Shown here: positions 5,801 through 25,258 of the stretch, one piece after another
Layout: each line of letters begins with the position of its first letter
Position numbering within the stretch: position 1 is the first letter of the stretch
Assembly (NCBI RefSeq): GCF_006516955.1
Contig: NZ_VHLG01000008.1
Coordinates: 1 to 64,000 of the forward strand
DNA length: 64,000 bases
Reading direction: 5' to 3'
From: Martelella alba
GTDB taxonomy: Bacteria; Pseudomonadota; Alphaproteobacteria; Rhizobiales; Rhizobiaceae
Position numbers and translations under genes: made by a program
The notes under the pieces: model-generated
The model's database searches: none
What the model saw: only the letters and a program-made list of their open reading frames with translations
Told to the model about the DNA's origin: nothing

Positions 5801-6751
5801 ATGAGAGAACTCTTTGAACGAGCTCAACATGGAACCCATGCCTCGCAACGTGACCTTCATATTATTCTGGACGCATTGCCAATTCCTATTTCCTGGGCCT
5901 ACACCTCGAGCGGCGAGATCCAATTTGTAAATCTCGCCTTCAAGCAGCTTTTTGGCTACCGCGATGACAGCTTCAAGACGGTCGCTGACTGGATTGAAAA
6001 CAGTTACGTCAAAGAATCGGACAGGAAGCTGACGAGACAGAGATGGCAAGATATCTGGCAGCCAGCGGGCGTTGGAATTTCCGAAGTTCTACCGATTGAA
6101 CTCGATGTTCGCTGTGCAGATGGCTCCATCGTGACGGTCATCCACCGGGGAACGCTCCTTCATGATATCGGGATCGCGATTGCCACGTTTGAGGACTTCA
6201 CTGCTCAGAAGCGAGCAGAAGAAGCACTTCATCGCCTGTCCTTCGAGGACCCGCTTACCGGAGCAGGAAACAGACGCGCCCTCCAGATGCAATGGGAAAA
6301 AGAAACGTCGGCGCGACTGGGAGATCAAACGCTGCCGCTGACAGTGCTGATGCTAGACCTTGACGGTTTCAAAGCGGTCAACGACAGCCTCGGACACGAC
6401 ATTGGCGATTCTATTCTGATTGAAACCGCCAGGCGAATTCAGCAATCCCTTCAAGCCAATGGAGCACTTTTCCGTTTTGGCGGAGACGAATTTGTCGTGC
6501 TGCTTACAGGCTTGGTTACGGCCAAGGAGGTGGAATTTCAGTGCACGCATATAAAGCAAGCGATCAGCGCCCCTTTCAAACACGTTAGTGACCATATTCG
6601 TCTCGGAATGACAATCGGCATTAGTCAATGGCCCGAGGACGGTCCAAATTTAAGCGACGTACTGAAGAAAGCGGACCAAGCGCTTTATAGCATGAAGAAA
6701 ACGAACAAAGGAGGCTGGCAATGGCACGCTCAGCCCCAAAGCAATCATTAA
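5801..6751 (+). CDS. PAS-GGDEF diguanylate cyclase (prophage moron)
   Basis: 316 residues. Predicted to make cyclic di-GMP from two GTP. Residues about 20-135 form a PAS fold (SGEIQFVNLAFKQLFGY) and the rest is a GGDEF domain with the metal site DLDGFKAVND and an intact signature GGDEF at 227-231. The RxxD inhibitory site that normally lies just before the signature is absent (QANG instead), so product feedback should be weak. No signal peptide or membrane segment is visible, so it is cytosolic. The gene is alone on the plus strand within the minus-strand tail operon and is AT-richer than its neighbours. It looks like a lysogen-expressed moron. The start at 5801 has only a weak ribosome binding site. 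Confidence 0.9.
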   Translation: MRELFERAQHGTHASQRDLHIILDALPIPISWAYTSSGEIQFVNLAFKQLFGYRDDSFKTVADWIENSYVKESDRKLTRQRWQDIWQPAGVGISEVLPIELDVRCADGSIVTVIHRGTLLHDIGIAIATFEDFTAQKRAEEALHRLSFEDPLTGAGNRRALQMQWEKETSARLGDQTLPLTVLMLDLDGFKAVNDSLGHDIGDSILIETARRIQQSLQANGALFRFGGDEFVVLLTGLVTAKEVEFQCTHIKQAISAPFKHVSDHIRLGMTIGISQWPEDGPNLSDVLKKADQALYSMKKTNKGGWQWHAQPQSNH

Positions 6752-6794
6752 GGCTATTCGATTTCACGCGATAAAAGATAAGATAGGTCAGTTA

Positions 6795-7259
6795 CTATTC
6801 GGCACTGGCGTCAGCATTGCCCGCCAGCGTCACATAATCCACCACATAAGTCAGCGCCCCAATCCCAAGCGAGATCCCAGTCGCGCGATCGACATAATGC
6901 CGGCTTTCGTCCAGCACCATTTCAATCACCAGACCGTCGAGCTTGATTGCAGCGCCAAGCGCCGTCTCGATCTCGACCGCCAGCCGGTCAAACTCGATAT
7001 CGGGATCTTCGGCCTTGAAGTGGACGATGATATCGATCGGCAGGCGCCGGTCGTAACCATCCTCACCATTCGGCCCGGCACAGGGGCGAATGGTTGCCGT
7101 CTCCTGCTTTTCCGACCATGTGGCGGTCAGCGCCGGAAGAAGGCTTTCGCGGATTGCCTCGGTGCGGGCGCGTTTGACCTTGCCAGCGCCGGAGAATTCC
7201 GGGATGGCCGAAAGCCGGGCGAGAAGCGCGTCAAAAATCTGTGTTCGCATATGCGCCAT
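6795..7259 (-). CDS. Tail terminator / minor tail protein (U-like)
   Basis: 154 residues. Position between FII and V and the overall pattern (an N-terminal helix IFDALLARLSAIP, a central LLPALTAT strand region, PIDIIVHFKA, and a C-terminal YVVDYVT strand) fit tail terminator proteins of the gpU type that cap the tail tube. It shares its first base with the last base of the preceding head-tail gene. Lambda has Z and U here; a Z-like gene in this phage may instead be at 15895-16638. Assignment is by position and fold pattern rather than a strong motif. Confidence 0.65.
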   Translation of the reverse strand: MAHMRTQIFDALLARLSAIPEFSGAGKVKRARTEAIRESLLPALTATWSEKQETATIRPCAGPNGEDGYDRRLPIDIIVHFKAEDPDIEFDRLAVEIETALGAAIKLDGLVIEMVLDESRHYVDRATGISLGIGALTYVVDYVTLAGNADASAE

Positions 7260-7591: not shown

Positions 7592-8022
7592 GTCTTGTCA
7601 CCCGTGTCACCGCTATTTGCGGACTGAAGCTTTTGCAATTCATCGGCAAGCGTGCCGTTATCCTCTTCCAGCTGATCACGCTCGGCCGTCATGGTCTTGA
7701 GATCTGCAGCCAGCTTGTCGCGCTCGGCGGTCAGTGCCGTCAGATCCGCACTGCCACTCTTGCTGGCCCTGGTCAGTGCATCCCGCTCGGCCGTCAGGTT
7801 GGTGACCTGATCGGCAAGACTGTCGCGCTCTTCGGTGAGCGCTGCAATCCGCCGGTCGCTGGTGCTGCCCTCGGCCGAGGTCCTGAACAGGCCGAACACC
7901 TGATCGAGGTTGTCGGCAGCAGCATCACTGAGGCCCTTGTCGGTGATCGGTACATCCTCACCCGGCGCATAGGTCTTGTTGCCAAGCTTCACCGTTGTGT
8001 TGAACTTTCGCGTCTTTGCCAT
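7588..8022 (-). CDS. FI-position protein with coiled coil
   Basis: 144 residues from the ATG at 8022, which has GGAAAC upstream; an in-frame ATG at 8037 lacks a ribosome binding site. Residues 1-45 form a small beta domain (KLGNKTYAPGEDVPITDKG). Residues about 55-135 are a coiled coil built from repeats of LTAERD(A/K/S/Q)L spaced in heptads. The gene lies between the capsid and FII genes, where lambda has FI, a DNA packaging accessory. I infer a packaging or head-completion role. The repeated coiled coil could also serve as an oligomeric stalk. Confidence 0.6.
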   Translation of the reverse strand: MAKTRKFNTTVKLGNKTYAPGEDVPITDKGLSDAAADNLDQVFGLFRTSAEGSTSDRRIAALTEERDSLADQVTNLTAERDALTRASKSGSADLTALTAERDKLAADLKTMTAERDQLEEDNGTLADELQKLQSANSGDTGDKT

Positions 8023-8083
8023 TGTTATCGTTTCCATATTTTGGAAGGGGTGCCGGGCGGATGTTGCCGCCCGGCGATCAGGA

Positions 8084-9115
8084 TCAGCGCACCAGTGCAA
8101 ACAGGCTGGCATTCGGCTCCGGCGCAATCGGCAGCGGGGCGGCCTGCGTCTGGCAGACCGTGCGCGAGGGGTTCTTTTCCGTCCACATGTCGGGGAAACG
8201 GGCCATCGGCAAAAGCGCCTGGTCATCGAGGATGGCGCCATAGCCGAAGTGGCCCATAAAGCCCTGCGGATCCATCACGCCAACGCCATAGCTCGGCCAG
8301 AAGTTGCCCTTCACGCCGCCGGTCGTATAGCCCTGCGAATACTGCACGAAGGTGATCTCGCCGATCACACCGAGAACCGCCGAATACTTTCCCTCAGCCC
8401 CGGTCGAAACAGGGCCGAACTCCATCGAGCCAGACGCCTGACGGCGGTTGTCGAGCATCTTCTGGAACCGCTCGGAACGCTTCAGCAGCGTCGCAGCCCC
8501 CGGCCCCAGCGTCACCTCACGGGCGGTGAAGCCATCAGTCAGCGCCAGCAATTCGATCCAGTCTTCGATATCATCGAAGGGGTCAATGCCACTCTCGCCC
8601 CAGCGGGCCGCAGCTGTCAGTGCGATGGTCAGCGATGCGTCGCGGCCGAAGTCGACCGTCTGCGTCGGATAGTTCTCGCCCTCGACAACCACCTTGCCGG
8701 TGCGCAGGACCGCCGAGCACATTGCCTCTTCGCGCCGGGTGATCCGCATGTCCTGATCGTCGATGATTGCGGCAATGTTATAGGCATAGCGCTCTTCCGG
8801 CGACATGACACCAGCAATTGCTTCACCCGGAACACGGATCAGATTGCCGTTCGGCCGTAGCGTATTCTGCGGCTTGACATAGGCGGGCTTCAGGCTGGTG
8901 GCCTTGAAGCCGCGATTGGCGGCATCCTTGCCCGGCACGTCGGGATGAACGAAGGGAGCAAGCTCACGATCGGGAATGATCTTGTCAAAGACAATTTCTT
9001 CCTGCTCGGAAAGCACGGTGGTCGAGAAATAGCGATTGCGCAGGAAGGCTTCAGGGCGATCGCGCGGCGGCAGAACCGTGACCAGTTCGGCCGTATTGAG
9101 AAGAAAGTTTTCCAT
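8084..9115 (-). CDS. Major capsid protein (gpE-like)
   Basis: 343 residues, nearly the length of lambda gpE (341). Builds the icosahedral shell. The sequence is recognisable as the Phage_cap_E family: VTVLPPRDRPEAFLRNRYF near the N-terminus, then EIVFDKI, the E-loop-like region with NTLRPNGNLIRVPGE, and a C-terminal segment with MDPQGFMGHFGYG. It sits between the decoration protein and the FI-position gene. No truncation is visible, so the head should assemble. Confidence 0.95.
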   Translation of the reverse strand: MENFLLNTAELVTVLPPRDRPEAFLRNRYFSTTVLSEQEEIVFDKIIPDRELAPFVHPDVPGKDAANRGFKATSLKPAYVKPQNTLRPNGNLIRVPGEAIAGVMSPEERYAYNIAAIIDDQDMRITRREEAMCSAVLRTGKVVVEGENYPTQTVDFGRDASLTIALTAAARWGESGIDPFDDIEDWIELLALTDGFTAREVTLGPGAATLLKRSERFQKMLDNRRQASGSMEFGPVSTGAEGKYSAVLGVIGEITFVQYSQGYTTGGVKGNFWPSYGVGVMDPQGFMGHFGYGAILDDQALLPMARFPDMWTEKNPSRTVCQTQAAPLPIAPEPNASLFALVR

Positions 9116-12780: not shown

Positions 12781-13007
12781 CCGAAGATCACCCCTCGCCC
12801 ACGCGGACGGCTGGAAGAGCGAATGCCAAGCTTTGTCTCGAGGCCGCGGATATAGGCCCGGAGCGACGCCCGGTCGGCGCCGGAATAGGTGACCGTCTCA
12901 CCGTCATAGGAAAGCGTCACCGCACTGCGGCCGGTTTCCAGCTTGTGGAGCGCAAGCCGTGCCTCGGAAAGCTGGCTTTCCAGCGTGATGCGTTCCTCTG
13001 TCGTCAT
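12777..13007 (-). CDS. Head-tail joining protein (gpW-like)
   Basis: 76 residues (lambda gpW is 68). Small alpha/beta protein that plugs the portal after packaging. The pattern of two N-terminal helices (LSEARLALHKLETG), a short hairpin (VTLSYDGETVTYS) and a C-terminal helix ending in Arg-rich residues fits gpW. It is nested between terminase large subunit and portal with 4-base overlaps on both sides, exactly the A-W-B order of lambda. Confidence 0.9.
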   Translation of the reverse strand: MTTEERITLESQLSEARLALHKLETGRSAVTLSYDGETVTYSGADRASLRAYIRGLETKLGIRSSSRPRGRGVIFG

Positions 13008-15079
13008 GGTGTCCTGCCGTTTCTCTGTGCCGCCCGGCCAGCGCGCCGCATGGCTGCGGCAACGCGATCCGGGACGGTTGTTTGTGTAGGTTCAGCCGCT
13101 TCGGCACGTTCTTCCTGCGCCCGGCTGACGGCCTCGGCAACAGCGGCAAGATTGCCGATCAGATCTTCGAGATCGCCCTGCCGTTCCGGCTCAAGCTTCG
13201 CCAGTTCCTCGGCGCGAACATCCCAGGCCTCATCGCTCCAATAGGGAACGCCAAGCCGGATTGCGGCGGCGCGCGACTGGTTCATCATGTCGAGCACTTC
13301 ATTGCGCTGGCCTTCGGGAAGCTTCCAGCGCCAGCGCGGATAACCGCTGCGGTCCTTTTCCTTGACGCGAACCTCAGATGTTGCCTGCTGATAGAAGGCA
13401 TCACCAAGGCCGGTGGCAAAGCGGATATAGCCCGGTGCTTCCGGGTCATCCTTCTTAAAGTCCCGGTAAAGCCCGATCTTCATCACCGAGGCGTTGAAGT
13501 TGAAGAAGCGGGTCGACCACTTCTGTTTCTTCGGCCGGCCGTTCTTGTCATATTCCCGCACCTGGCTCAGCAAAGGCGCTGTATCGCGATTGTCACCGCG
13601 CACCATGATCACCTTCGAGCGCGGATAACCGCGAACCCAGAACCAGACATCTTCGGTATAGGCATTGCCGTCGATGCCGACACGATCAATGCTGCGTGGC
13701 TTGCCATTCTCATCAGGCCAGCGTCTGGCAATCAGCTGATCGAGCGCCTTCATCACCTGCGGCTCTGAGATATGGCCGGAATGCTCACGATAGCCGGCAA
13801 GATGACTGCCCGCCCGGCTGTCGATCACACCGTAATCGATCACCGCGCTGATCTTGTTACGGCCCCATCCGCGCAGCAGCCACTCGACACGATCACCCTG
13901 AACGTCAATGCCCATGGTCAGCGCCAGACTATCGGCCGGAACGATGCCACGTTTAAAGCCGGTCGCATCAGCGCGGTCGCGCAGGTCTTCCCAGTCCACC
14001 GCCTTATTGTCTGCCTCAAAGGCAAGGCCAAGCGTGTCGTTGAAGAATACCTGTTCGGCGCCGGTGCCCTTGTCCTTATCGTCGGCGCCACCGGCCTGAA
14101 CCTTCAGCCAGGCCCGCGCAATTGCCTCCCAGCTTTCAAGCGGCGAATAGGGCACCCAGATATGAAACGAGCGATGGTAACGCGCCCGGTCGGGATATTT
14201 GGCAATCCATTTTGCCCCGTTCTTCGGGTCGACCATCCATGCGCGATGGTGTTCGTGGATCTCGCAGCCGCATGCCGTGCAACAAAAATGCGCAGCCTCC
14301 GGGTGTTCGGGATCGATGTGATCGCGCATATTCTCCCATTCGAGAACCTGCAGTTCTCCGCAATGGGGGCACGGCACATGATAGCGCTCCTGCGTACCAG
14401 CGAGATAGTTCTCGGTGATCCGGCAACCCGGCGCAATCAGCGGGGTCGAGATCTTGAAGACCTTGCGGTTGAAGAAGGCCTTTGACCGGCTATCGGCCTG
14501 CACCTCCGGGTCACCGGCTTCATTCATCCCCCATTTGGCAAGGTCGTCCTGCACCTGGGCGCGCGGCGAGATCATCGACAGGCCGGCGGCCGAATTGGCA
14601 CCCGCCGCCTGCACCGCGCCACGCCCGTCGATCCGTTCCTTGTAAAGGATCGAATTGCCACCGTCGCGGCTGCCATCGGCAAACAGAGCCCTGACCGAGG
14701 TCGTCTCGCGCAACAGCGGCATCAGCTTGGTCTTTGACCAGCGCGAGGCGTTTTCTTCTGTCGGGTGGACATAGAGGAAGTCGCAGGGGTCAAGCTCCAG
14801 CGTGCCGAGCAGGAAGATATTGGCCAGCACCGTGCCACCGACCTGTGCGGATTTGGCCAGCGAGACAATCGAACAGGGATCATCCGGCGAAAGCGCCTTC
14901 AGGATCTCCGAGAAGAATGGAAACATGTCCTCGCGGTAAGGGCCGGGAAAGGCCGAGATCCGCTCGGAGAAGACGATGTTGTCCTTGGCCCAGGCGAGAT
15001 AGTCGACCGGTGGTGGCGGCTCGCAGACTTCCGCCAGCGCCTCATAGATCAGCCGCAGCGGGTTGAACAGGATCGTCAT
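13004..15079 (-). CDS. Terminase large subunit (gpA-like)
   Basis: 691 residues from the ATG at 15079 (lambda gpA is 641). ATPase and nuclease that cuts and packages DNA. The Walker A-like loop is SLAKSAQVGGT in the N-terminal third. A Cys cluster (CPHCGEL ... CCTACGC) forms a zinc-binding insert near residues 240-275. The nuclease part has MGIDVQGDRVEW and later IDGNAYTEDVWFW. The gene overlaps the small subunit by about 38 bases; an upstream in-frame start at 15112 would lengthen it by 11 residues. The lambda-type terminase implies cos packaging. Confidence 0.94.
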   Translation of the reverse strand: MTILFNPLRLIYEALAEVCEPPPPVDYLAWAKDNIVFSERISAFPGPYREDMFPFFSEILKALSPDDPCSIVSLAKSAQVGGTVLANIFLLGTLELDPCDFLYVHPTEENASRWSKTKLMPLLRETTSVRALFADGSRDGGNSILYKERIDGRGAVQAAGANSAAGLSMISPRAQVQDDLAKWGMNEAGDPEVQADSRSKAFFNRKVFKISTPLIAPGCRITENYLAGTQERYHVPCPHCGELQVLEWENMRDHIDPEHPEAAHFCCTACGCEIHEHHRAWMVDPKNGAKWIAKYPDRARYHRSFHIWVPYSPLESWEAIARAWLKVQAGGADDKDKGTGAEQVFFNDTLGLAFEADNKAVDWEDLRDRADATGFKRGIVPADSLALTMGIDVQGDRVEWLLRGWGRNKISAVIDYGVIDSRAGSHLAGYREHSGHISEPQVMKALDQLIARRWPDENGKPRSIDRVGIDGNAYTEDVWFWVRGYPRSKVIMVRGDNRDTAPLLSQVREYDKNGRPKKQKWSTRFFNFNASVMKIGLYRDFKKDDPEAPGYIRFATGLGDAFYQQATSEVRVKEKDRSGYPRWRWKLPEGQRNEVLDMMNQSRAAAIRLGVPYWSDEAWDVRAEELAKLEPERQGDLEDLIGNLAAVAEAVSRAQEERAEAAEPTQTTVPDRVAAAMRRAGRAAQRNGRTP

Positions 15080-15755
15080 GGTCTGGCATGTCCTCGTCAT
15101 CCGGCGCTTCAAGCGTCTCCGGCGTCTTGTCCCTGATGGCGCGAAACGCCTCGGCTGCGGCCTGCCGGATCGACCGCCATTTGCGGGTCAGTGCCTTTTG
15201 CAGGTCCCGCTGCGGCAGGCCGAACTCTTCAGAAAGCGCCGTTGCCAGATCCGGCAGCCCCTGCTCCATCACCTTGAAGGCTTCCGAGATCCCCCGACCG
15301 GTCTCGCGCTTTGCGTCTTCCGTGCGGACATAGATGCCCGCCTCTTCACGTTCCTGCCGCGCCATCTGGGCGGTCTTGTATTTTTGCTGTTGCAGCCGCT
15401 CGCGGGCGAGAAGCTCGGCAAGATCCTCCTCAGGTGACGGCGGGCGGAGCGGCAATTGCCCCGCCCCGCCCGGCCGCGCTTCGGCACGGGGGAAATCAGC
15501 CTGTTTGCGAACTGTGGCTGTCGCTGCTTTCCCGTTGGCGCCAAATCCTTGTGCGGGATCGATTGAAAGACCGAGCTGGGCGATGGCTCGACCAGGACGG
15601 ATCCGGGCAAAGCGCCCCTCGCCCTCGATCGCATCGCCATGGATCTGCCCGGCGCTTAGATATTGCGAGACCCGGCCGGGTGAGACAGCAATCAGCGCTG
15701 CAAAGGCGGCCTTGGTCATGCTCTCAGGCATGGGTTCCATGGTGGCTAAACTCAC
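15042..15755 (-). CDS. Terminase small subunit (Nu1-like)
   Basis: 237 residues. The N-terminal helix-turn-helix region (MTKAAFAALIAVSPGRVSQYLSAG) fits the DNA-binding domain of lambda gpNu1 that recognises cosB. A long helical middle (about 100-150) and an acidic C-terminus that would contact the large subunit follow. It is immediately upstream of the large subunit, as in lambda. Several in-frame Met codons (first, sixth, ninth and thirteenth) make the exact start uncertain. Confidence 0.8.
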   Translation of the reverse strand: MSLATMEPMPESMTKAAFAALIAVSPGRVSQYLSAGQIHGDAIEGEGRFARIRPGRAIAQLGLSIDPAQGFGANGKAATATVRKQADFPRAEARPGGAGQLPLRPPSPEEDLAELLARERLQQQKYKTAQMARQEREEAGIYVRTEDAKRETGRGISEAFKVMEQGLPDLATALSEEFGLPQRDLQKALTRKWRSIRQAAAEAFRAIRDKTPETLEAPDDEDMPDHDDPVQPAAADL

Positions 15756-15894: not shown

Positions 15895-16638
15895 TCAGTG
15901 CTTGGCGAAGGTCTTGCGGAACGCCCGTTCAAAGGTACGCTCCTTTTTGGCGCGAACAACCTCGGCCACGATCTCGGCAAGCTTCAGCCGTTCGGTGTAG
16001 GCCGTGGCCGTGACAAACAGGATGACCGGATAGAAGCTGCGATCCGGCGCACGGCCTGAGAACCAGATGCCCCGCGCCAGATCAGACCGCCCCTCAGGCA
16101 CGAAGAACTGATAGGCCCTGGCCTTGCGCTTCCGCCGCTTGCTGTCTTTCGACACACGCGTGGTGCCCGAACCACGATAGTCGATCTTCAGATCACGCAT
16201 GACGCGGTTCAAAAAGCCTTGCGTCATGTTGCCGTATCGGTCGAGCGGCGTCTGCCTTGCTGGCACGGCAACCTCATTGCGCCGCATCAGTCCGCGCCCG
16301 ATCAGCTGTTGTTCAAACGCCTTGTGCCCGCGCATGCCGCCCTGAATTTCCGGGCCGAGGAAGGCCGTGGCCGGAAGCCCGCCTTTCGTACGGTCACCCG
16401 TCGCGACAACAGCGGAGTTCCGGTTCGAAAGCGTCGCATTGTCGTAGACGATGCCGCGCACCGCGTAAGGCGTCGGCCGGTCAAACACCGTCTTCATCCG
16501 GGTCTTCACCTCGCGCATGGCGTCATAGGCCAGCCAGTTCAACGCAAGCACTTCCGCCTTCGGCATAAGCTCGCGTTGCACCGAGGTCATCTTCGCCTCG
16601 AAGCGGGAAAGGTCGATGTCGATGTGGGCTGAAAACAT
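15895..16638 (-). CDS. Possible minor tail protein Z-like, at the head of the late operon
   Basis: 247 residues, basic. An N-terminal helical region (LALNWLAYDAMREVKTRMK) is followed by a strand-rich middle and a C-terminal segment of FYPVILFVTATAYTERL and a Lys/Arg-rich helix. This layout resembles lambda gpZ (tail completion), but sequence match is weak. It is the first gene of the late operon, upstream of the terminase, whereas lambda Z lies between FII and U. An 11-bp hairpin (16648-16673) ends ten bases before its ATG, and no good ribosome binding site is visible. It could instead be an unrelated packaging or host-takeover protein. Confidence 0.4.
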   Translation of the reverse strand: MFSAHIDIDLSRFEAKMTSVQRELMPKAEVLALNWLAYDAMREVKTRMKTVFDRPTPYAVRGIVYDNATLSNRNSAVVATGDRTKGGLPATAFLGPEIQGGMRGHKAFEQQLIGRGLMRRNEVAVPARQTPLDRYGNMTQGFLNRVMRDLKIDYRGSGTTRVSKDSKRRKRKARAYQFFVPEGRSDLARGIWFSGRAPDRSFYPVILFVTATAYTERLKLAEIVAEVVRAKKERTFERAFRKTFAKH

Positions 16639-17272
16639 AAGCGAATAGCCCGTCTGGCAAACGCCAGACGGGCGCCGTCCTAAAAATCAGGGTGCGCCGT
16701 AAGATTTCGTAAAACCATGGCACAACATCAGGTCTCTGCGCCAAGGTCGTCAAATGAATACTGAAATCGAACCCATGGGTACGCCACGACCTACCCAAAG
16801 ACAAGCTGCCGTTGCCCCTCAGTTTGTATTTTAGTAAATCAATATTTAAGGCATCGGCCTAAACTACAAAACCTAAAATGAGAGGCGACCTTGGGGGTAT
16901 GGTCGCATCTCTCAGGGGCCTTCAGAGCACACACACCCATTCGCCGTCATGGGGGCGACGGCGAATTTGGGGACCTCTATCCCAGGCTCAAAAAGGTAGT
17001 GTGAATATAGCGAAGACAACCAATGCAAGCAACAACTAAAGCGATACAAACTTACATGTAATTACATTTAGTTGTTTCGGGAAGACTACGAGTGAACTCG
17101 CAATCACCCATTTTGAGGACGAGGAGTGTTCAATCGTCATCGTCTGAAAGGGAGGCATAGCTCACGCACTGGCCCTGAAGTGGTTCGGCCTCTGTTCGGC
17201 CGTTTCAGGGCTGGGTCCGGGCGTGAGAGCAAGCTCCACTGAGAACCGGATCATCCGTTAGCGCATATAGAT
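16639..17272. promoter_or_regulatory. Hairpin-rich leader of the late operon
   Basis: 634 bases with no convincing gene, between the NusG-like gene and the late operon. It holds five perfect or near-perfect stem-loops: 16648-16673 (11-bp stem, 4-base loop), 16880-16913 (5 plus 6 bp with a 2-base bulge), 16939-16966 (10 bp, 8-base loop), 17031-17076 (10 bp around an AT-rich centre that contains a 12-bp palindrome at 17056-17067), and 17173-17210 (7 plus 5 bp). None has a clear U tract. In lambda this interval holds the late promoter, the Q site, a terminator, lysis genes and cos. No lysis gene is visible here. A late leader, an antitermination site or cos are the main possibilities. Confidence 0.55.
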
Positions 17273-17908
17273 TCACAGTTTCTCGAGGATTGCAAGGGGG
17301 ATCAGCATCGGCGTTTTTCGTCCCATCAGCTCAACCTCCACCACAGCGTCCCCACGACCGTCTGAGCGGGCATTCACGATCTCTCCCGACAGCCCGGCAA
17401 AGACACCATCGCCGATCCGAACAGATTCCCCCGGCTGGAACCGGCTTGCCGCCTGACGCTGCCAGTCATAATCGCCCGTCTGTGAGCGTCGAAGGATTTC
17501 CGTTACCTTCCAGTGCGTTATCGTGAACGGTTTATCCCATCCGCCAAGAAGACCCGACACGTGATCGAAGCCGTAGAAGGCGTTCAGCGCCTCATTCGAG
17601 ACGGCAAATCTGACCAGCAGATAGCCGCCCATCAGCGGCATGTCGCTTGCAGGAATGATCCGTCCACGACGCTTGCGGGCTGGTCCTTTTCGCATCGGCA
17701 GCGCCGTCTGCACACCGGCTGCGATCAGATCTTTTTCCACCGTGCATTCGTGCCCCTGCTGCACCTCGGCAACGAACCACGGTGCATCATCGGCCACCGG
17801 TTCGCGCAATGCCGGACGCTGGCGGATGCTGATCGCCTTCAGCCGCTCCTCGAGCTTCAGGCGCGCATCCCGAATGATCTGCCCGTCGATATCCTGCCGC
17901 ACCATCAT
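17273..17908 (-). CDS. NusG/RfaH-family transcription factor (phage antiterminator candidate)
   Basis: 211 residues. An N-terminal helical extension (1-40) is followed by an NGN domain (about 42-145, PWFVAEVQQGHE to the MPLMGGYLLVRF strand, which corresponds to the FPGYVLV strand of NusG) and a KOW domain (about 158-190, FQPGESVRIGDGVFAGLSGEIV). NusG paralogues such as RfaH, LoaP and UpxY act on single operons by suppressing pauses or termination. Here the gene is the last of the early operon and directly precedes the structured late leader, where lambda has Q. I infer that it controls late transcription. It is coupled to the upstream gene by ATGA. Confidence 0.85.
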   Translation of the reverse strand: MMVRQDIDGQIIRDARLKLEERLKAISIRQRPALREPVADDAPWFVAEVQQGHECTVEKDLIAAGVQTALPMRKGPARKRRGRIIPASDMPLMGGYLLVRFAVSNEALNAFYGFDHVSGLLGGWDKPFTITHWKVTEILRRSQTGDYDWQRQAASRFQPGESVRIGDGVFAGLSGEIVNARSDGRGDAVVEVELMGRKTPMLIPLAILEKL

Positions 17909-18639
17909 GCCACCGCCTCACTTGCCCTTGCCCGTTCGAGCCGTTCGAAGAATGCCTCAAGCGCCACGCTTGGCGCTCCACCCTGAAGCGGCGGAAAGTA
18001 CACCCAGTCCTGCCGCCCCGTATCCGGCAGCCATGGCCAGCCGCGCTTATCGTGCTCTGCCTGCCATACCTGCCAGATCTCGCCATCAACCCGCACAGCC
18101 TCGAAGCCATCGCCGAGCATGGCGATCGCCCGGCTCACCCGAACGCCCTTGGCAGGCTCACGAATGGCCTGCGCATGCATGTCGTTGACTGCAGGCCAGC
18201 CCATCTTGCGCATGCGCTCCAGCTTCACCGCGGCCCCGTCATAAAGCCCTGCCGCGATCTGGCGCTGATAGAAGGCCGAGAGCGGTGGCAGGCGTCGGCA
18301 TGGTGCGGCAAGACGAGCGAAGCGTTCCGCCATCCATGAACGGCCAAAGGTCGAGCCGATCGTCGGGCCATTGGTGGAGGCGACGCGTTCCGGCACCACG
18401 GACCAGCGCTTTTCCTTCAGATAGGTCGAGGCGGCATGTTTCACCTGCCTGCCATTGATCGCCTCAAAGGCCAGATAGGCCTCAAGCTGGCTTGCTGCGG
18501 CCTGTCGGTCTTCCTCGGCAAGCGCCTGCCATTCGGCAAACGCCCGCTCATAGGAATCATCGCCGCAGGCAGGCCAGAGCTTGTAGAACCGCATGAAGGC
18601 CTTGCGCAGCGCCTTCCGGTTTTCAGCATCACCGCGCAT
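17905..18639 (-). CDS. Phage early protein of unknown function
   Basis: 244 residues from the ATG at 18639, which has GGAGG nine bases upstream; the open frame extends further but without a site. I do not recognise the family. The first 70 residues are helical and aromatic (AFMRFYKLWPACGDDSYERAF) with the flavour of phage replication-adjacent proteins. The C-terminal third has many Trp (IWQVWQAEHDKRGWPW). It overlaps the upstream gene by 11 bases and the NusG-like gene by 4, so it belongs to the early operon. Confidence 0.6.
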   Translation of the reverse strand: MRGDAENRKALRKAFMRFYKLWPACGDDSYERAFAEWQALAEEDRQAAASQLEAYLAFEAINGRQVKHAASTYLKEKRWSVVPERVASTNGPTIGSTFGRSWMAERFARLAAPCRRLPPLSAFYQRQIAAGLYDGAAVKLERMRKMGWPAVNDMHAQAIREPAKGVRVSRAIAMLGDGFEAVRVDGEIWQVWQAEHDKRGWPWLPDTGRQDWVYFPPLQGGAPSVALEAFFERLERARASEAVA

Positions 18640-19126
18640 GGGCAGGTTCCTCCAGCGAGCGCCCGGCCGTGATCTGGGCAATCAGCTTGCGCGCCTTCGC
18701 TGCCATTTCCTTCCGGCGTTCCTTCTCCGCCTCGGTCAGTTCCAGCTGCAGCGATTCCCGTTCCTGCGCCGCCTCGAGATCCCGTTTTGCTTTCGCCCGT
18801 GCCCAGCGATCCGCCTTTGCGGCATCGGCAACCAGCACGGCAAGCTCTGCCGGGCGCGGCAGGAACGAGCGGAATTCGGGAAACTGTCCCTGCATCAGGC
18901 CGTTCGCCACATGCTTCAGGGCTTCAAGCGGCGCCGCGTTCAGCGCGATCCGGTAGGCCTTCAGTTCCAGCCCCGGTTTGATCGAGCTTGGCGCGATGAA
19001 GCCGAGATCGATTAGGCTGCCGACGATCTCGCCGGCCTGTTCCGGTGTCGCCGGGGTCAGCCTGTCTTCAAGCGCGGTAATCTCTGCGACCAATGTCGAT
19101 GATTTTGCCACCAGTTCCGTCGTCAT
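18629..19126 (-). CDS. Phage early protein of unknown function
   Basis: 165 residues, mostly helical. The C-terminal half is highly charged (AKAKRDLEAAQERESL onwards), suggesting a coiled coil. The N-terminal half is a small globular region (GSLIDLGFIAPSSIKPGLELKAY). Its start lies 59 bases inside the 3' end of the O-like replication gene, so the two are translated together. In lambda the corresponding position holds P, the helicase loader, but I see no motif that would support that identity here. Confidence 0.6.
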   Translation of the reverse strand: MTTELVAKSSTLVAEITALEDRLTPATPEQAGEIVGSLIDLGFIAPSSIKPGLELKAYRIALNAAPLEALKHVANGLMQGQFPEFRSFLPRPAELAVLVADAAKADRWARAKAKRDLEAAQERESLQLELTEAEKERRKEMAAKARKLIAQITAGRSLEEPAHAR

Positions 19127-22515: not shown

Positions 22516-22756
22516 AGCAGCTGGAATATCGAACTTTTCCGCAGGGCCCGATTGCTCTGACCTGCCCTCCGAAAAAAGCCTACAGCCTTGATGAAGCGGA
22601 CCGGGTTATCCGGCCCCACAAAACCATCTACCGCCTCCGGCAGAAGTAATAGTTGTGAGCGGTCTATTCCAGAATGATGCCCCATGAGGCATCATACCGG
22701 TGAGCGCTTCCGGTTGGAAACCTCCATCTCTCAATTCTCTCCTACCGAGCCAGCTA

Positions 22757-23278
22757 ATGATCAATCATCACAATCCCTTAATCTCAGTAGCCCGACACAC
22801 CGAACGCCTAAAGCTGCGCCCTCCGGGCGTGGGCGATCTTCCATTTCTAACGGCGTTATTTGCAAAGCCTGAGATGGTTGCTCATCGTCCAACTCCTCAG
22901 CCCGATAGTGCGGATGAATGCGCTGCCAGGCTGAAGAAAGACATGGCGCACTGGCAGGAACACGGCTTTGGGCGATGGGCAGTTATCGCGAACGGAAACC
23001 TGATCGGCTTCGGCGGCCTCACAGTTTCGAAAGAGTTCGATGGCCTGAACCTGTCCTACCACCTCGACCCTCAAAGCTGGGGAAATGGATATGCAACAGA
23101 GCTCGTTCGCGAGCTCTTGTCATTCGCGTTCAAAGAACTGAAAGCCCGTCGCATTATCGGACTGGTGCGCTCCGCAAATCCGGCATCCAGGAAAGTGCTG
23201 GAAAAGTGTGGGCTCAGCTTCGAATGCGAGGTGATGCTCCACGGTGCGCCCACAAATCTCTATACCATCACTCGCTAG
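22757..23278 (+). CDS. GNAT acetyltransferase, RimJ/RimL type (probable moron)
   Basis: 173 residues from the ATG at 22757. GNAT fold with ARHTERLKLRPPGVGDLPFL at the N-terminus, strand FGRWAVIANGNLIGFGGL, the acetyl-CoA loop LDPQSWGNGYATELV, and LVRSANPASRKVLEKCGL near the end, as in RimL-like enzymes that acetylate protein N-termini or small amines. It lies between cI and the oL-like operators on the plus strand, a place where lysogenic conversion genes often sit. Function in the phage is unknown; it could modify a host target or be a passenger. Confidence 0.8.
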   Translation: MINHHNPLISVARHTERLKLRPPGVGDLPFLTALFAKPEMVAHRPTPQPDSADECAARLKKDMAHWQEHGFGRWAVIANGNLIGFGGLTVSKEFDGLNLSYHLDPQSWGNGYATELVRELLSFAFKELKARRIIGLVRSANPASRKVLEKCGLSFECEVMLHGAPTNLYTITR

Positions 23279-23819: not shown

Positions 23820-24053
23820 ATGGCACGCAGAGTAATACCGTTTACCGCAGATTCCGTGCGGCGCGTGATCAAGGCGGTGAAGTCCGCCGGCGTCGAGATC
23901 AGGACCGTCAGCGTCCGCCAGGACGGCACGGTTGTGATTAATGGGGATAACGGGGAAAACCAGCAGAATGAGCTTGTCGACCGTTCCCAGCCTGAAAACC
24001 TTTCCAGCTTCGATGATTATCGGGCCTGGAGGGATCGTGAGTGCGCGTCGTGA
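23820..24053 (+). CDS. Small protein upstream of the integrase (xis position)
   Basis: 77 residues. MARRVIPFTADSVRRVIKAVKSAG begins a short helix-rich domain with a following EIRTVSVRQDGTVVING hairpin. Similar short proteins are very often found directly before tyrosine integrases in alphaproteobacterial prophages. Its 3' end overlaps the integrase start by 13 bases. The position fits an excisionase or recombination directionality factor, but this is inference. Confidence 0.65.
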   Translation: MARRVIPFTADSVRRVIKAVKSAGVEIRTVSVRQDGTVVINGDNGENQQNELVDRSQPENLSSFDDYRAWRDRECAS

Positions 24054-25120
24054 CGGAGTTGAAGGGCGTGCACCGCGTAAGAAAGACGCTCGCCAGCGGC
24101 AAGGTGGTCTACTACCACTACGCCTGGCGCGGTGGTCCGCGGATCATGGCCGATCCAAAGAAGGACAAGGACGCCTTCATTGCCGAGTTTCGTTACCTGA
24201 CGATGACGGCAAAGACCGAGGGTGTGCTGACGCTTGAAGGTCTGATCGAGGTCTTCACCGGAACGAATGACAAGCCCAATCCCGATTTCCTCGCTCTGTC
24301 CGAAAGCACCCAGCGCGATCACCTTTATGCCTTTCGCCTGATTCGTGAGAAATGGCCGCGCCTGCCGGCAAGGCTGACGCAGCAGCGCGGCATGAAGCGC
24401 GATATCATCGCGTGGCACCGGTCATTTGCCGAACACCCACGCAAGGCCGACAAGCTGCTGTTCTCGCTCTCCAAGGTGTTTTCCTACGCGATCAAGAACG
24501 AATATGTCGAAAAGAACCCCTGCACCGGCATCGATCGGCTTTATCGCGGGTCGCGCCGCGAATTCGTCTGGACGGACGACTTCATCGCCCGCGTGCGCTC
24601 CAGGGGAAAGCCCCACATTGTCGCCGCCCTCGAGGTCGCGGTCTATACCGGACAGCGCCAGGGCGACATTCTGGCCCTGACCTGGCCCCAATATGACGGC
24701 CAGCACCTGCTGATCAGGCAGGGAAAGACGGGCAAGCGGGTCAAGATCCGCGTGCACAAGGAACTCAAGAAACTGATCGACCGTCTCAAGAGCGAGGCCG
24801 AGAACCGCAAGATACGTTCCGCCTATATCCTGACCAACAGCCGGGGCCGGCCGTGGACCAAGGATGGCTTCAAGACGTCATGGGGAAAGCAGATGCGCGA
24901 TCTCGGCATTGAAGGCGTCACATTCCATGATCTGCGCGGCACCTTCATCACCGACCGCCGCCGTGAAGGCTCGACCGTCGAACAGATCGCCAGCATATCG
25001 GGACACTCGATTTCCGAGGTCAGTTCGGTGCTGGAAAAGCACTATCTGGCAGACGATCAGCAGGCCAGCGATGCGGTGATTACGAGGATGGAAAGAACAC
25101 AGCGGAAACGAAAACCGTAA
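24041..25120 (+). CDS. int: Tyrosine-family site-specific integrase
   Basis: 359 residues. Catalyses prophage integration and excision. The catalytic set is complete: Arg206 (TGQRQGD), Lys229, His296 and Arg299 (HDLR), His322 (GHS) and Tyr335 (KHYL). The N-terminal part carries a core-binding region with a short N-terminal arm-binding stretch. The GTG start at 24041 has GGAGGG eight to nine bases upstream. The gene ends 61 bases from the 3' end of tRNA-Arg, the usual layout for integration into a tRNA gene. Confidence 0.95.
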   Translation: MRVVTELKGVHRVRKTLASGKVVYYHYAWRGGPRIMADPKKDKDAFIAEFRYLTMTAKTEGVLTLEGLIEVFTGTNDKPNPDFLALSESTQRDHLYAFRLIREKWPRLPARLTQQRGMKRDIIAWHRSFAEHPRKADKLLFSLSKVFSYAIKNEYVEKNPCTGIDRLYRGSRREFVWTDDFIARVRSRGKPHIVAALEVAVYTGQRQGDILALTWPQYDGQHLLIRQGKTGKRVKIRVHKELKKLIDRLKSEAENRKIRSAYILTNSRGRPWTKDGFKTSWGKQMRDLGIEGVTFHDLRGTFITDRRREGSTVEQIASISGHSISEVSSVLEKHYLADDQQASDAVITRMERTQRKRKP

Positions 25121-25181
25121 ACCGATGTGTAAACCGGCCTGTGTTTGGCCTATCGGCCATAGGCTAAGTTATTGAAAAGAA

Positions 25182-25215
25182 TGGCGACCCCTGCAGGATT
25201 CGAACCTGCGACCGT
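25182..25215. other. Probable right attachment site (tRNA 3' end)
   Basis: The 3' part of the tRNA-Arg gene, with its encoded CCA, faces the integrase gene across 61 bases. Integrases of this class cross over in the tRNA 3' half and leave the gene intact. A second copy of this segment should mark the other prophage end; none is present in 1-25000. The exact core cannot be set from one end. Confidence 0.55.
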
Positions 25216-25258
25216 CGGCTTAGAAGGCCGGTGCTCTATCCAGCTGAGCTAAGGGGCC
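25182..25258 (-). tRNA. tRNA-Arg(TCT)
   Basis: 77 bases with encoded CCA. The acceptor stem GGCCCCT pairs with AGGGGTC (one G-U). The anticodon loop CTTCTAA has TCT, reading AGA. D and T arms (GGTTCGAATCC) are regular. It is the insertion target of the prophage. Confidence 0.95.

Follow-up and report, generated by a model that had tools for sequence, protein, structure and literature searches.

A NusG paralogue and an adjoining structured element as a candidate late-gene switch in temperate phages of the Rhizobiales

Temperate phages of the Rhizobiales probably switch on their late genes by antitermination, through a NusG paralogue, here named NusGp, working with a promoter, a conserved structured element and a terminator placed directly beyond its gene. 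This looks like an apparently undescribed way of switching on phage late genes. The system came to light in a prophage of Martelella alba, within a stretch of 64,000 nucleotides (the whole stretch of DNA that was analysed, called the window here), and comparison among relatives strongly supports, at the level of sequence, the suggestion of a preliminary description that late antitermination in this phage may rely on a NusG paralogue and a nearby structured site. What the comparison yields is a protein family, an element with its stems, the pairing of this element with NusGp, a terminator in most relatives, a gene order and a constrained TTGC; from these we infer promoter activity, binding, docking on the RNA rather than the DNA form of the element, participation of Nus factors and antitermination itself.

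Early transcription would produce NusGp last. From a promoter that overlaps the 3' end of the NusGp gene, a transcript would start with the element in its 5' portion and then run into an intrinsic terminator. RNA polymerase lacking NusGp would halt at this terminator, and the product would be a short leader RNA. NusGp, probably assisted by Nus factors of the host, would dock on the element as it emerges from the polymerase, and by remaining there would allow passage through the terminator or terminators into the late operon. The succession of regulator, promoter, structured site, terminator and late genes follows the logic of lambda Q with a NusG paralogue in its place. The evidence leans slightly toward a broader proposal, that these phages represent a third class of phage late switch which replaces Q across Rhizobiales phages, with the NusG paralogue loading on a large RNA that lies next to the promoter and starts where transcription does, and with uninduced lysogens making a short terminated leader RNA. 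Counting against the switch, the window has no strong terminator near the element and carries a second promoter-like sequence downstream, and a replication initiator is linked as tightly as NusGp.

The NusG-type protein and its place in the phage genome

The prophage has its genes in lambda order and includes a CI-like repressor, a CII-like gene and an integrase. NusGp is the final gene of the early block, and the late genes lie on the same strand after a gap of 634 bases. The junction between the two blocks is arranged as follows, in window coordinates.

17905-18681, (-): replication-initiator-like gene, directly upstream of the NusGp gene and overlapping it
17273-17908, (-): NusGp gene, encoding a 211-aa NusG-type protein with NGN and KOW regions
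15895-16638, (-): first late gene, minor tail type (PHROG 1924)
15042-15755, (-): terminase small subunit (profile matches)
13004-15112, (-): terminase large subunit (profile matches)

Late genes do follow the gap, as had been described, but the length of about 17 kb given for their operon does not stand: the window begins at the first base of its contig, so that the operon is truncated and the remainder, to its left, must be on another contig, and a GGDEF gene on the (+) strand lies inside it. This gene (5801-6751, (+)) encodes a PAS-GGDEF diguanylate cyclase on the opposite strand within the head/tail region and is possible cargo. A GNAT acetyltransferase gene (22700-23278, (+)) sits between the prophage repressor and the integrase, and the tyrosine integrase gene itself (24041-25258) adjoins tRNA-Arg(tct), the likely attachment site.

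The identification of a NusG-type protein as the last early gene is borne out by matches to Pfam NusG (2.6e-12; 47.5 bits against a cut-off of 22.2), which place NusGp in the NusG/Spt5 superfamily, and to PHROG 6386, 'transcription antiterminator' (1.4e-34), with late genes next in line; at that place, then, the gene is indeed NusG-type and not of the Q family. A profile built from 74 NusGp relatives matches E. coli NusG across NGN and KOW (6.4e-34), and in a search of the PDB the family profile finds NusG far better than RfaH (6e-34 vs 9e-15). NusGp falls below every curated NCBIfam cut-off applied, those for housekeeping NusG (TIGR00922, 51.4 of 135.7 bits), RfaH (TIGR01955, 35.8 of 144.5 bits), LoaP (NF033641, 28.3 of 125 bits) and UpxY (NF033644, 43.8 of 100 bits), and is thus regarded as a separate family. 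The earlier label 'RfaH-like' is accordingly not retained as a statement of membership, and the layout fits LoaP better than RfaH and ops. A housekeeping NusG of the host is encoded on a different contig and is 32% identical to NusGp over the match. PHROG 6386 was dropped as a marker for NusGp because it also finds housekeeping NusG (363/397 genomes and 10/14 controls), and a Salmonella match (H6) was discarded as a phage case, being a chromosomal nusG in a bacterial contig.

Relatives of NusGp occur in 21 of 297 genomes of the family, at 25 places including the window, and also in named phages. The surrounding gene order is well kept. A relative of the replication initiator lies directly upstream in all 84 viral or named records with at least 2 kb of upstream sequence, its match ending 596-746 nt before the NusGp stop. 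Of the 43 records with at least 5 kb, 41 have a terminase relative downstream in the same orientation, beginning 1.05-3.25 kb after NusGp. The complete lambda-like order can be seen in Agrobacterium phage Rivra and Sinorhizobium phage phi3LM21. Between the NusGp stop and the next ORF of at least 80 aa the median distance is 211 nt (n=88). NusG-type matches were also found in phages of Microcystis, Acinetobacter, Enterococcus, Listeria and Staphylococcus, in Bacillus phage G and in uncultured records. A phage recorded from Nostoc (L030, PP395642.1) has a rhizobial-type NusGp, 40.6% identical to that of the window, together with the element; the Nostoc label may stem from a bacterium living alongside the cultured organism.

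The conserved structured element

The element was first recognised by reading the DNA 3' of NusGp in 31 relatives, most of which have it. The window copy is of a short form.

17156-17256, (-): the whole element, short form, directly 3' of the NusGp gene (62.6 bits with model R1)
17246-17250, (-): 5' strand of stem P1, TCCGG (stem parse)
17216-17220, (-): 3' strand of stem P1, CCGGA (stem parse)
17172-17211, (-): P2/P3 hairpin (folding, covariation)
17156-17171, (-): P4, CAGTGC-NNNN-GCTATG, strongly conserved (alignment)

A covariance model, R1, was built from 28 copies, all beside NusGp, and was then run on whole genomes. Among 33 sources R1 recovers its 28 copies and that of the window, and finds no element after NusGp at L005, L021, L023 and L027. 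Within the family, 22 of the 25 NusGp places have the element, L021, L023 and L027 being without a detectable one; L021 and L023 retain a GGACGA-like start and other hairpins, and their sites may have diverged or decayed. When the 297 family genomes were searched with R1 alone, 33 matches were obtained, 22 of them at places already known from the protein (the window included) and 11 elsewhere. Ten of these 11 adjoin a NusGp relative, and the exception is the weakest match, at 28.1 bits and noise level, so that 32 of the 33 lie beside NusGp. Across the class, 385 genomes yielded just three matches in addition to the window copy, all of about 27 bits.

An exact pattern for the element extends this association, and the preliminary description had pointed to co-occurrence of protein and hairpins among relatives as a check on its proposal. 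In viral contigs the pattern occurs in at least 120 stretches; among the viral matches listed, NusGp ends 91-158 nt upstream in 112/120, and the remaining eight have just 37-188 nt of upstream sequence. The same pattern occurs in 80 stretches of bacterial and archaeal genomes. Sixty-one have NusGp, and two, both from Neorhizobium, have too little upstream DNA (56 and 273 nt). The other 17 have neither NusGp nor the structure and serve as a natural control for chance matches; they come from clearly unrelated taxa, apart from one unplaced alphaproteobacterial MAG. R1 separates the two groups, giving at most 25 bits to 16 of the 17 and no score to the last, and at least 41.7 bits to the other 63. 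Protein and element thus do go together across relatives, the element lying beside NusGp in 112/120 of the viral matches listed and in 61/63 genome stretches, and the converse finding, a leader with some other regulator in place of NusGp, was met in none of the element copies with enough upstream DNA, bar the one 28-bit match.

All six named phages examined carry the element (Nsp-JY10, Rivra, phi2LM21, phi3LM21, PPF1 and vB_MseS-P1). In the last of these, a Mesorhizobium phage (L301), the annotated start of an HNH gene (6762-7097) falls inside the element (6711-6775), which makes that start doubtful. The element is a structured site outside all Rfam 15 families: of 4227 models only tRNAs reach their gathering score in the window, and relaxed limits bring up nothing credible at the element in seven relatives or in the window leader.

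The anatomy of the element was derived from 129 distinct copies. GGAYGA usually comes first, followed by the 5' strand of P1, an inner part, the 3' strand of P1, CCC, P2 enclosing the hairpin P3, and finally P4. The inner part is short in 24 of the 124 copies in the NusGp tree set, those of the window type included, and long in the other 100. The anchors and patterns used required a four-base loop in P4, whose length therefore carries no evidential weight. P1 was read by a strict parse in 88 copies, with 41 left unread, and is fully paired in 67 of the 88; permutation of its strands gave 15.9 on average and at most 27 (200 permutations). A looser parse covering 115 copies gives Watson-Crick pairs in 537/575 cells, with 35 different stems. 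P2 and P4 were examined in 89 distinct rows drawn from 100 of the 120 viral stretches listed; the alignment had been fitted to the structure of the model. With this fitting, the covariation score is 0.141 vs 0.099 +/- 0.006 in shuffles, with 0/500 as high, and 22 cells are changed on both sides vs 7.8, again with 0/500. Pairs changed on both sides number 2 vs 1.9, not clearly above shuffles, and the same is true of further pair types (42/500). By these parses and this alignment, stems P1 and P2 covary. The segment within P2 folds at -2 kcal/mol or below in 128/129 copies, a few of which are read in the wrong register.

It is at this point that the form in which the element is recognised has to be considered. 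NusGp might be recruited through DNA, as RfaH is, with hairpins of the non-template strand read in a paused complex. The kinds of mismatch are compatible with such a reading: G-U cells balance A-C cells in P2 (36:36) and come close to doing so in P1 (18:14), which leaves no overall bias toward the RNA strand, and because the element begins at the predicted transcription start, promoter-proximal pausing is plausible. The element is nevertheless far larger than ops, with the long-range stem P1 in addition to inner hairpins, and at three inner pairs of P2 (columns 18-20 of A3) G-U outnumbers unpaired cells by 15 to 2, at positions picked post hoc. Recruitment through DNA therefore seems unlikely, and docking on the RNA is the form preferred here.

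Signals around the element and the rest of the leader

A candidate promoter is found where the NusGp gene ends.

17265-17295, (-): predicted promoter over the 3' end of the NusGp gene (family-wide codon constraint)
17290-17295, (-): -35 sequence TTGCAA, part of the predicted promoter
17265-17271, (-): A/T-rich -10 region, part of the predicted promoter

Third codon positions of the NusGp gene are under little constraint except over roughly the last ten codons, where constraint sets in. At one fixed site near the end of the gene, leucine is written CTT in 101/101 copies (background 362/1837), isoleucine ATT in 17/17 and valine GTT in 5/5, with another residue in 6/129; since CTT, ATT and GTT are all kept, what is conserved is TTG, whatever the residue, within a promoter-like TTGC. 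The distance from TTG to the GGAYGA of the element is 37-39 nt in 110 of the 123 copies that have both (the script chose the pair nearest 38), and it is kept in L012, where the NusGp stop codon has moved. Codon and spacing counts alike come from related copies and hence are not independent. An A/T-rich hexamer stands 18 nt after TTG, its fit to TATAAT being modest (3.46/6 vs 2.94 in shuffled sequence, with a maximum of 3.14 in 100). A scan with the E. coli consensus does not find the window promoter, and a general promoter scan of the family gives slight enrichment only. TTGC and the hexamer are read as a putative promoter whose transcript would begin at the element, in the window near 17258. 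A boxA-like sequence is present in 18/129 copies, compared with a shuffled mean of 5.9 and maximum of 15; it is not conserved, and terminator stems may confound the count.

On the far side of the element a terminator is expected, and in most relatives one is seen. A stem of six or more uninterrupted pairs, G-T included, with a T-rich tail, no more than 150 nt after the element, is present in 112 of 126 distinct copies, at a median of 14 nt past the element, vs 7.2 in shuffled sequence and 11 on the opposite strand. Fourteen copies, that of the window being one, have no such hairpin within 150 nt. The window leader has the following features.

17004-17032, (-): second promoter-like sequence, TTGCTT-N17-TATATT, downstream of the element (seen by eye)
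16939-16966, (-): strong hairpin of the distal leader, outside the conserved element
16867-16913, (-): best terminator-like hairpin of the window leader, its stem (16880-16913) imperfect and its T tract interrupted
16648-16673, (-): hairpin before the first late gene, in the distal leader and outside the conserved element

The hairpin at 16867-16913 is weaker than its counterparts in most relatives, lies further from the element and was missed by automated terminator scans. The 634 bases between NusGp and the first late gene (16639-17272) contain no credible gene, in agreement with the preliminary description, and as RNA they fold better than 20/20 dinucleotide shuffles (z -6.7). All five strong stem-loops described there are present (17172-17211, 17032-17075, 16939-16966, 16880-16913 and 16648-16673), but only that at 17172-17211 belongs to the conserved element. 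For the window, the stretch of the element taken by itself (17150-17265) shows no unusual stability (z -0.87).

The nature of the distal leader is illuminated by a congener (G1060), one of whose prophages (L303) has NusGp, the element and the distal leader. A second locus in this genome, L306 (G1060:C2:203000-214322), has the same late module, the tail protein matching at 96%, the terminase small subunit at 98% over 205 aa and the distal leader at 93% over 400 nt. In the 11.3 kb of L306 examined there is no NusGp and no element. Upstream of the late module are a primase, a 295-aa protein and a terminator-like sequence noted by eye, and the early region is unrelated. The 295-aa protein (ORF 7694-8581, (+)) belongs to PHROG 9306, of unknown function, and occupies the place of NusGp before the terminator-like sequence; it is a candidate for an unrelated late regulator. 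In this one case NusGp and the element are both absent and the late module is kept, which indicates that the two were gained or lost together. A leader without NusGp thus does occur, in respect of its distal part only, the conserved element being absent there, and since the distal leader persists where NusGp and the element do not, the site for NusGp does not lie in the distal hairpins of the window. A search of plasmids for the distal leader gave no match.

The promoter-like sequence at 17004-17032 is part of this shared late module, so that the late genes of the window may have a second promoter. An alternative built on this holds that NusGp tunes the elongation of early genes or host transcription, and that the late genes are expressed independently, in the window by way of 17004-17032, a sequence which lies in a module common to the sibling prophage without NusGp and element. 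Most relatives leave little room for such an arrangement, their median gap of 211 nt being largely filled by element and terminator, and we judge it distinctly unlikely as a general account when set beside the proposed switch.

Further evidence that protein and element belong together comes from their inheritance. On a tree of 124 NusGp proteins the short and long forms of the element require 4 changes vs 22.4 for shuffled labels, with 0/500 shuffles as low, a result to which near-copies contribute. The NusGp tree requires 2 changes and the terminase tree 4, in 40 records, too few to weigh. These data bear on whether the element could act alone on RNA polymerase, as the put RNA of HK022 does, with NusGp accessory or otherwise employed. 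A compact folded element directly upstream of a terminator would suit such a role, and put RNA is described as performing its function alone (PMC9378689). Here every scoring element with enough upstream sequence adjoins NusGp, bar one 28-bit match, and the form of the element tracks the NusGp tree, which makes autonomous action improbable. That the element is a DNA site (a replication origin, primosome or packaging site beside the initiator or terminase gene) is very improbable: the initiator is adjacent in 84/84 records, terminase is near in 41/43 and hairpins occur in single-strand DNA sites too, but the terminator-like hairpin lies close by on the transcribed strand (112/126, vs 11 on the other) and promoter-like constraint is found just upstream.

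Relation to known systems

In phage lambda, Q is the last early gene and is followed by the promoter pR', the loading site qut, the terminator tR' and the late operon, the pR' transcript starting before tR'. The proposed switch has the same order of last early gene, promoter, site, terminator and late operon; it differs in that its regulator is a NusG homologue and its site a covarying structured element. The short terminated leader RNA predicted for lysogens would be comparable to the 6S RNA of lambda. Most known specialised NusG paralogues serve host operons that make antibiotics, capsules or lipopolysaccharide. RfaH resembles NusGp as an operon-specific NusG paralogue that resists termination, an activity predicted for NusGp; its ops site is a short DNA signal, whereas the NusGp element is large.

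The closest known mechanism, by analogy, appears to be that of LoaP, which is reported to bind a leader RNA hairpin and to promote read-through of intrinsic terminators in the dfn and mln operons of Bacillus velezensis, the hairpin being required in vivo and in vitro (PMC12691694). A NusG paralogue and a leader hairpin before a long operon are common to both, and a hairpin resembling an intrinsic terminator follows in most NusGp relatives, though not close to the element in the window; for NusGp, binding is predicted. The NusGp system differs in that it would serve phage late genes and in that its element is larger (P1, P2/P3 and P4) and starts where transcription is predicted to start. Another alphaproteobacterial protein, GafZ of the gene transfer agent of Caulobacter, likewise concerns a phage-like late cluster and is described as antiterminating over a terminator; its predicted structures are said to lack similarity to known antiterminators, and a putative site has been assigned to it between -35 and -10 (PMC11150451). 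A possibly related 'transcription antiterminator' is placed at the end of the early region in all phiLM21-like Sinorhizobium meliloti prophages compared in one report, whose main text does not use the word 'NusG' and whose passages on this protein mention no RNA site (PMC12429752). The occurrence of rfaH-like genes on prophages has also been mentioned (PMC7593976). Among the papers listed by searches of mostly open-access literature, none was seen to describe a NusG-based phage late switch, and searches of the same scope on rhizobial phages and RNA motifs listed no account of one.

If the proposed switch is correct, a phage late switch with a compact, clonable site and terminator would provide a simple system in which to study how NusG paralogues choose their targets, and it would explain late control in phages of soil- and plant-associated bacteria, the genes of which at present bear just generic antitermination labels.
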